Of a DNA stretch of 64,000 bases, positions 57,711-59,115 are shown piece after piece (position 1 is the stretch's first letter; every line of letters starts with the position of its first letter). The notes beneath the pieces are model-generated. The model saw only the letters and a list, made by a program, of their open reading frames with translations, had not been told where the DNA came from and ran no database searches. This DNA comes from Chloroflexota bacterium. Its GTDB lineage: Bacteria > Chloroflexota > Anaerolineae > SpSt-313. The DNA is taken from positions 186,001 to 250,000 of the forward strand of contig JAKPJZ010000250.1 in assembly GCA_029553955.1 (NCBI GenBank), read 5' to 3'. The position numbers were made by a program, and so were the translations under genes.

Positions 57711-57826
57711 TGCAGCGTGTTGCGTGTTGCGTGTTCCGTTGTCGCAGCTAGAGGCCGGTGCCCCCAGGGCGAGCCTTCGACAGTTCGCGAGCAAACGGAA
57801 CACGTAACACACAACACGTTGGCGCC
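57711..57826. repeat. gcgtgttgcgtgttccg inverted repeat
   Basis: agcgtgttgcgtgttgcgtgttccgtt and aacggaacacgtaacacacaacacgtt enclose about 50 bp between the epimerase and glycosyltransferase genes; a relative of family N. Confidence 0.75.
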
Positions 57827-57849
57827 AGTCGCAACGGATGGGAGACCGC

Positions 57850-59115
57850 ATGTCCGACGCACGTCTGCGCGTGGCCATCAACGCCAGCTTCTGGGGCCAG
57901 GAGACGGCCGGGAGCGGGCAGTACCTGCACCACCTGGTGGAGGCCCTGGCCGGCCTGGACGAGGATCTCGAGCTGGTGCTGTGCGGGCCGGTCGGGCTGG
58001 AAAGCCCGACCCACGGGCGGGTGGGACAGGCTTTCCAGCCTGTCGGGTCTCGAACGGGCGGGGGGCCGGTCGGGCTGGAAAGCCCGACCCACGGGCGGGT
58101 GGGACAGGCTGGAGAGCCTCTGGCTCGGGTGACGTGGCACAGCGTACCGGCCTCCGGCCGGCGCCGGCTGGGCGAGAACGTCGAGAAGGTGTGGTTCGAG
58201 CAGGTGGCCTTTCCGCGGGCGGTGCGGGCGGTGGGCGCGACGGTGGCACACGTGCCCTACTTTGCCTCTCCGCTCTTGCCGGCCCAGCCGACGGTGGTCA
58301 CCGTGCACGATCTCATCCCCCTGGTGCTGCCCGGCTACCGCACTTCGGCGCTCGTGCGTGGCTACATGCGTCTGGTGGCGGCGGCGGCGCGCCGCGCCGA
58401 CCTGGTGCTGACCGATGCCGAGGCCTCGGTGGGCGACATTGTGCGCTGCTTGGGCGTGGCGGCCGAGCGGGTGCGCGCCATTCCTCTGGCCGTGACGCCC
58501 GGCTACCATCCGATCACCGATGGTGAGGCCTTGGCGGCGCTGCGGGTGCGCCATAGCCTGCCCGACCGCTACCTGCTGTACCTGGGTGGCTTTGACCAGC
58601 GGCGCAACCTGGGCACACTCTTCAGGGCGCTGGCCGAGGCGCGCCGCCGCGAGCCTGGCCTGCCGCCCGTGGTGCTCGCCGGGGCGCTGCCGGCCGGCGA
58701 TAGTGCCTTTGCGCCCGACCCGCGTCGCCTGGCGGCCGAGGCCGGTGCGGCCGCGGGGGTGCGCTTTCTGGGGCGTGTGCCCGAAGAGGACAAGCCCCTG
58801 CTCTACAGTGGCGCTCTGGCCTTCCTCTTCCCCTCGCGCTACGAGGGCTTTGGCCTGCCCGTGCTCGAGGCGCTGGCCTGCGGCGCGCCGGCGGCCGTCG
58901 CTAGCGCGACCACGCTCCCCGAGGTCGCAGGCCCGGGCGCGCTGCTGATCGACCCCGACGATGTGGCCGGCTGGGCTGAGGCCCTGGTGCGCCTGGCCAC
59001 TGACGAGGTGCTGCGCGGCAGGCTGCGCGACGCGGGCCTGGCCCACGCCGCCCGCTTCTCCTGGGCGCGCACGGCCCGTGAGACGCTCGCCGCGTATCGA
59101 GCGGTTGTAGCATGA
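57850..59115 (+). CDS. GT4-type glycosyltransferase with a repeat-derived insert
   Basis: 421 aa GT-B glycosyltransferase. The acceptor-side N-terminal domain begins RVAINASFWGQETAGSGQYLHHLVEAL. The donor-side domain has YLLYLGGFDQRRNLGTLFRALAEA, RFLGRVPEEDKPLLYSGA and the EX7E motif in PSRYEGFGLPVLEAL. Residues about 47-91 (GPVGLESPTHGRVGQAFQPVGSR ... GPVGLESPTHGRVGQAGEPL) are two in-frame copies of a palindromic intergenic-type repeat. They are inserted where the family has a short loop. ATG 57850 (ggagaccgc upstream) is preferred over 57838. Probably acts in surface polysaccharide synthesis with the epimerase. Confidence 0.88.
   Translation: MSDARLRVAINASFWGQETAGSGQYLHHLVEALAGLDEDLELVLCGPVGLESPTHGRVGQAFQPVGSRTGGGPVGLESPTHGRVGQAGEPLARVTWHSVPASGRRRLGENVEKVWFEQVAFPRAVRAVGATVAHVPYFASPLLPAQPTVVTVHDLIPLVLPGYRTSALVRGYMRLVAAAARRADLVLTDAEASVGDIVRCLGVAAERVRAIPLAVTPGYHPITDGEALAALRVRHSLPDRYLLYLGGFDQRRNLGTLFRALAEARRREPGLPPVVLAGALPAGDSAFAPDPRRLAAEAGAAAGVRFLGRVPEEDKPLLYSGALAFLFPSRYEGFGLPVLEALACGAPAAVASATTLPEVAGPGALLIDPDDVAGWAEALVRLATDEVLRGRLRDAGLAHAARFSWARTARETLAAYRAVVA
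57987..58110. repeat. Two 46-bp identical repeats inside the glycosyltransferase gene
   Basis: gccggtcgggctggaaagcccgacccacggg... occurs at 57987-58032 and 58065-58110, 78 bp apart (26 codons, so in phase). Each contains the hairpin gtcgggctggaaagcccgac. Confidence 0.92.

Follow-up and report, generated by a model that had tools for sequence, protein, structure and literature searches.

REP-like elements in head-to-head pairs lie in frame within a GT4-type glycosyltransferase and at least eight further proteins of a Chloroflexota genome

REPINs and BIMEs are mobilised by RAYT transposases. The GTAG-tagged REPs (repetitive extragenic palindromes), of which 24 families have been named, are short stem-loops with a GTAG head at one end; they occur predominantly as head-to-head dimers and in clusters and are mostly intergenic (Di Nocera et al. 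2013, PMC3733652). Some GTAG REPs are located inside genes, in frame within proteins such as DNA polymerase I, DnaE and repair enzymes, and intragenic clusters coding for 43-82 residues have been described; GTAG REPs have also been reported in Chloroflexi, and the authors of that study argued that intragenic REPs may be tolerable owing to flexible linkers or loops (PMC3733652). In Rickettsia, the palindromic dispersed repeats RPE-4, RPE-6 and RPE-7 are found in frame at solvent-exposed sites of housekeeping proteins, with DNA polymerase III alpha and the tRNA ribosyltransferase-isomerase QueA among the hosts (PMC3767692). In-frame intragenic REPs and palindromic elements are already known, therefore, from the GTAG REPs, from Rickettsia and from a few other bacteria, and the case described here is a striking one.

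The window (the whole stretch of DNA analysed, 64,000 nucleotides from a Chloroflexota bacterium) contains a forward-strand coding sequence (57838..59115) for a GT4-type glycosyltransferase of 425 amino acids, counted from the ATG at 57838, which carries a REP array in frame; an alternative start at ATG 57850, noted on inspection, would give 421 amino acids and has no effect on the result. The gene is preceded by one for an NAD-dependent epimerase and followed by genes for MFS and TauE proteins, and the nearest named relatives of its product are from Chloroflexota MAGs, in itself a pointer to that phylum as the probable source of the window. The protein matches both Pfam Glyco_transf_4 and Glycos_transf_1 above cut-off, and AlphaFold2 modelling (with five sequences) gave a confident GT-B fold (mean pLDDT of 81), for which the best structural matches were GT4 enzymes, e.g. 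MshA, GlgM and BshA; fold and domains are both those of the GT4 class. The frame runs for 425 codons without a stop or frameshift and the family sequence blocks are kept on both sides of the insert, in agreement with an earlier note on this DNA, in which the frame was said to be kept and the catalytic domain to be intact; both GT4 domains are in fact intact. Just upstream of the gene there is a 28-nt inverted repeat, CAGCGTGTTGCGTGTTGCGTGTTCCGTT (57713-57740 and 57794-57821), a member of a second class of dispersed repeats, for which the genome has 47 matches.

The REP array (57985..58119, plus strand) consists of one copy of a 78-nt unit followed by a truncated second copy, although the fragmented assembly may misstate how many tandem units there are. 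It is visible as a 57-nt direct repeat (57985-58041 and 58063-58119) with 93% identity over 57 nt and a start-to-start spacing of 78, the leading 48 nt being identical between the copies when the sequence is read directly. Tandem Repeats Finder gave no report above threshold for the array, because it has fewer than two full copies. The earlier note had described two identical 46-bp units, 78 bp apart, each holding a hairpin and together encoding one peptide twice. The spacing and the peptide (GPVGLESPTHGRVGQA, coded twice in frame in the GT4 protein) were both recovered, while the identical core was found to be 48 nt rather than 46 bp. The hairpin of the central palindrome, GGTCGGGCTGGAAAGCCCGACC, is also real, with exactly 2 occurrences in the window versus 0 expected from shuffles, but a further hairpin, GACAGGCTTTCCAGCCTGTC, sits between its two copies, so that the repeat unit has two hairpins and not one. 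As RNA, the array segment has a predicted folding energy of -96 kcal/mol (z -5.8), a much stronger fold than that of shuffled sequences.

In place of the single palindrome originally proposed, the array was resolved into REP elements in head-to-head pairs, a BIME-like arrangement, with the consensus GTRGGRCRGGCTTTCCAGCCYGYC. The first REP (57991..58014, minus strand) reads GTGGGTCGGGCTTTCCAGCCCGAC on its own strand with 2 mismatches to the consensus, and stands head-to-head with the second (58021..58044, plus strand; GTGGGACAGGCTTTCCAGCCTGTC), which has 0 mismatches. The third (58069..58092, minus strand) equals the first in sequence, and the fourth (58099..58110, plus strand) is truncated to GTGGGACAGGCT only, after which orthologue-alignable sequence follows, as seen by direct reading and in the alignment with locus L032. 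The exact left boundary of the insert is ambiguous because GGGCCG is common to the REP spacer and the orthologue.

The genome to which the window belongs was found to contain 77 copies of the consensus on each strand at up to 2 mismatches, and 86 and 89 at up to 3 mismatches, using a search pattern that permitted both GTAG and GTGG heads; the same pattern read backwards as a control gave 0 matches in this genome. The family thus comprises approximately 170 dispersed copies. Neither of the two same-family genomes had any copy, and the remaining class members searched had close to none. Among the copies listed, every head is GTAG or GTGG, with GTGG the form of the GT4 copies, and arrays elsewhere in the genome have the same alternating +-+- order with a period of about 76-78 nt. 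The family lies mostly outside strong coding context, with 8 of the 55 arrays examined (the GT4 array excluded) in frame between coding-like flanks, which bears out the earlier impression of an intergenic dispersed repeat. A high-copy palindromic stem-loop with a GTAG-type tag, organised in head-to-head dimers and clusters and predominantly intergenic, has the attributes of the GTAG superfamily of REPs. No RAYT (Y1_Tnp) gene flanked by the GT4-type REP, a typical but not universal REP trait, was found in the available, incomplete assembly, and for these two reasons the element is classed here as 'REP-like' only. Three Y1_Tnp genes (IS200/RAYT-like; L118, L119 and L120) are present in the genome, each among other repeats; a role for one of them as the mobiliser of this REP was not supported, as none has flanking copies of it. 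Two of them (L119 and L120) adjoin tandem arrays of other repeats, with translations containing CRAREGAPRWRGYG and RTPELVRGRAAGNAPTSWGV, and these are possibly the REP families of those Y1_Tnp genes themselves.

The glycosyltransferase orthologue in a same-family genome (G001), where the gene order GT-MFS-TauE is kept, is 35 residues shorter exactly at the insert site. The segment is likewise missing from 27 further homologues, giving 28 usable homologues from the class with the G001 orthologue included, all of the genomes compared being from outside the genus. The absence from homologues anticipated in the earlier note was therefore confirmed, and its estimate of about 45 residues for the total insert has to be reduced to a net 35 relative to the nearest orthologue. 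In the homologue alignment the insert site is a loop of very variable length, leading from a conserved GSGQY-containing N-terminal block to an N-[LV]-x-K-[VL]-WFEQ helix. Differences between the GT4 gene and the G001 orthologue at first, second and third codon positions numbered 8, 8 and 16 on the near side of the insert and 77, 71 and 170 beyond it; as they fall mainly at third positions on both sides, a purifying pattern, the two halves derive from a single protein under constraint. GT4 residues 56-94 have a pLDDT below 50 in the AlphaFold2 model, between strands at 44-51 and 98-103, and the natural reading of this model is that the REP-coded insert would form a disordered surface loop. Absence from orthologues, a kept frame and a location in a surface or variable loop are also the marks of RPE-like in-frame palindromic elements. 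A glycosyltransferase homologue in G002 (L060, G002:C721) has an unrelated N-terminal part, is near a contig end and may represent either a misassembly or a gene that is truncated; with an N-terminal part foreign to the family, it was left out of the insert comparison. The corresponding loop in G008 (ELRIAHYALCIVHC) was considered as a possible dispersed repeat of that genome, which was not supported, there being no second copy in approximately 330 kb.

Forty-nine further loci with REP copies were taken from the genome, and in-frame codon usage was scored on both sides of 55 arrays. At least eight more proteins of the genome have the array within one uninterrupted frame whose flanks, left and right, are coding-like, namely PolA (DNA polymerase I; L064), a DUF2298 membrane protein (L072), a MiaB/RimO-like methylthiotransferase (L088), an AMP-binding enzyme with weaker flank coding scores than the other hosts (L091), DnaE (DNA polymerase III alpha; L121), two GH65 proteins fused to a HAD domain (L127 and L132) and QueA (L133). 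The two GH65 proteins are paralogues (69% identical) that carry the array at one and the same site. The insertion in GT4 is thus not a single case, as at least nine enzymes or other proteins of one genome carry the element. For PolA, DnaE, QueA and the methylthiotransferase, orthologues from up to eight genomes are without the REP-coded residues. The DnaE of two class members (L166 and L167; G060:C38 and G011:C102) is interrupted near query residue 588 by additional open frame of approximately 1.2 kb, the resulting frames being 1589 and 1645 amino acids, and this segment is possibly an intein.

The GT4 gene could alternatively be a decaying pseudogene, inactivated by the REP, its frame being open only by chance since the repeat is poor in stops. 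A REP with a GTGG head has no stop in any of its six frames (five of six are open with a GTAG head), so the open frame is weak evidence, and an insertion in the N-terminal Rossmann domain could be harmful. Against this stand the uninterrupted 425 codons with family blocks on either side, a loop that was hypervariable already, and the REPs within polA, dnaE and queA, all three of which are unlikely to be dead; we consider decay of the gene improbable.

Among the nine host proteins, GT4 included, all six REP reading frames and both orientations are used, and consequently the hosts have no peptide in common. The sole frame in which the GTAG head gives a stop is used only by the methylthiotransferase, where the copies in that frame are all GTGG-headed. 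This pattern fits better with insertion at random, after which harmful cases were purged, than with recruitment of a particular peptide. Selection of the repeat-coded peptides or of the mRNA hairpins for a role, for example in regulation of the enzyme or the mRNA, might be argued from the RNA fold, from the recurrence of replication and tRNA-modification enzymes as hosts both here and in Rickettsia (PMC3767692), and from the replication and repair enzymes that are hosts in other species (PMC3733652). Any REP folds strongly, however, and the GT4 insert occupies a variable loop that is predicted to be disordered, so that such a role, with every frame in use, appears very doubtful. An assembly artefact, in which repeats joined two unrelated contigs or expanded the array, is hardly credible: the assembly is indeed fragmented (272 contigs, 92% complete, 8% contamination) and repeats are classic misjoin points, but the two halves make up one glycosyltransferase, colinear with the syntenic orthologue, which is likewise followed by the MFS and TauE genes, and a misjoin would have been needed at the same homologous point and in frame, and likewise in eight other genes.

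The reading that we prefer, with a probability of roughly 0.85, is that a GTAG-superfamily-like REP array inserted in the variable loop of GT4 and is read in frame as a tolerated disordered loop, most likely functionless. A lineage-specific array that is, or once was, mobile in this genome would have entered the hypervariable surface loop between strand 2 of the N-terminal domain and the helix with the N-[LV]-x-K-[VL]-WFEQ motif, and we infer that it did so by transposition and that the insert is neutral. The inserted length preserved the reading frame and, the element being stop-free with a GTGG head, the array would be translated throughout into a disordered loop rich in Gly and Pro and tolerated by the enzyme; judged from the sequence, it is probably translated in vivo into a floppy loop of 35 residues. 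The view of the earlier note that the repeat has been turned into protein is thereby supported as the probable outcome. The GT4 insert would then be one survivor of many insertions filtered by selection, which would explain why at least nine proteins carry the element in differing frames and orientations.

Dispersed repeats of other kinds were found in some of the corresponding loops of other class members. The QueA loop of G020 (L146) is made of short dispersed repeats of that genome (14 matches in a few hundred kb; shuffle mean of 0), as is the PolA loop of G060 (L136) of repeats of G060 (39 matches; shuffle mean of 0.1), where both counts include partly overlapping matches and the PolA count includes the loop itself. 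The repeats in these two loops differ from the REP described here, and simple repeats resembling them are also present in some other class genomes. The methylthiotransferase loop of G020 (RHETRNTEHETE) had one extra match, a weak one. Since the QueA and PolA loops hold other repeats in these genomes, and since two of the host proteins, QueA and DnaE, recur as hosts in Rickettsia (PMC3767692), certain loops of the core enzymes QueA, PolA, DnaE, the MiaB-like methylthiotransferase and GT4 might be recurrent landing sites at which unrelated repeats were independently captured as protein, a suggestion that we hold tentatively and with rather less than even confidence.

Extragenic repeats here probably become protein in a lineage little studied for such events, and do so in nine or more enzymes encoded by a single genome. 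As the empty site can be named for several hosts, the genome offers a natural experiment on which loops tolerate sudden insertions of 10-55 residues, and on whether a repeat without stops in any frame can give rise to new protein segments. It is also a rich case of recurrent tolerated sites.

Compared with the Rickettsia RPEs, which are of unrelated sequence and from another phylum, the likeness is that palindromic dispersed repeats lie in frame within housekeeping proteins, DnaE and QueA being hosts in both; in Rickettsia several species have the insert at a common site (PMC3767692), whereas the same-family genomes lack the inserts tested here. A dedicated RAYT, as expected of REPINs and BIMEs, was not found for this REP in the available assembly, but paired inverted REPs with conserved spacing, forming a population within one lineage, are shared with those elements. 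The family was not traced to any of the 24 named GTAG families, and differs from the GTAG REPs in that many heads are GTGG, the host is a GT4 enzyme and no flanking RAYT was found; it is like them in its hairpin, its GTAG or GTGG head, its head-to-head pairing and its mostly intergenic location with some copies in frame (PMC3733652).
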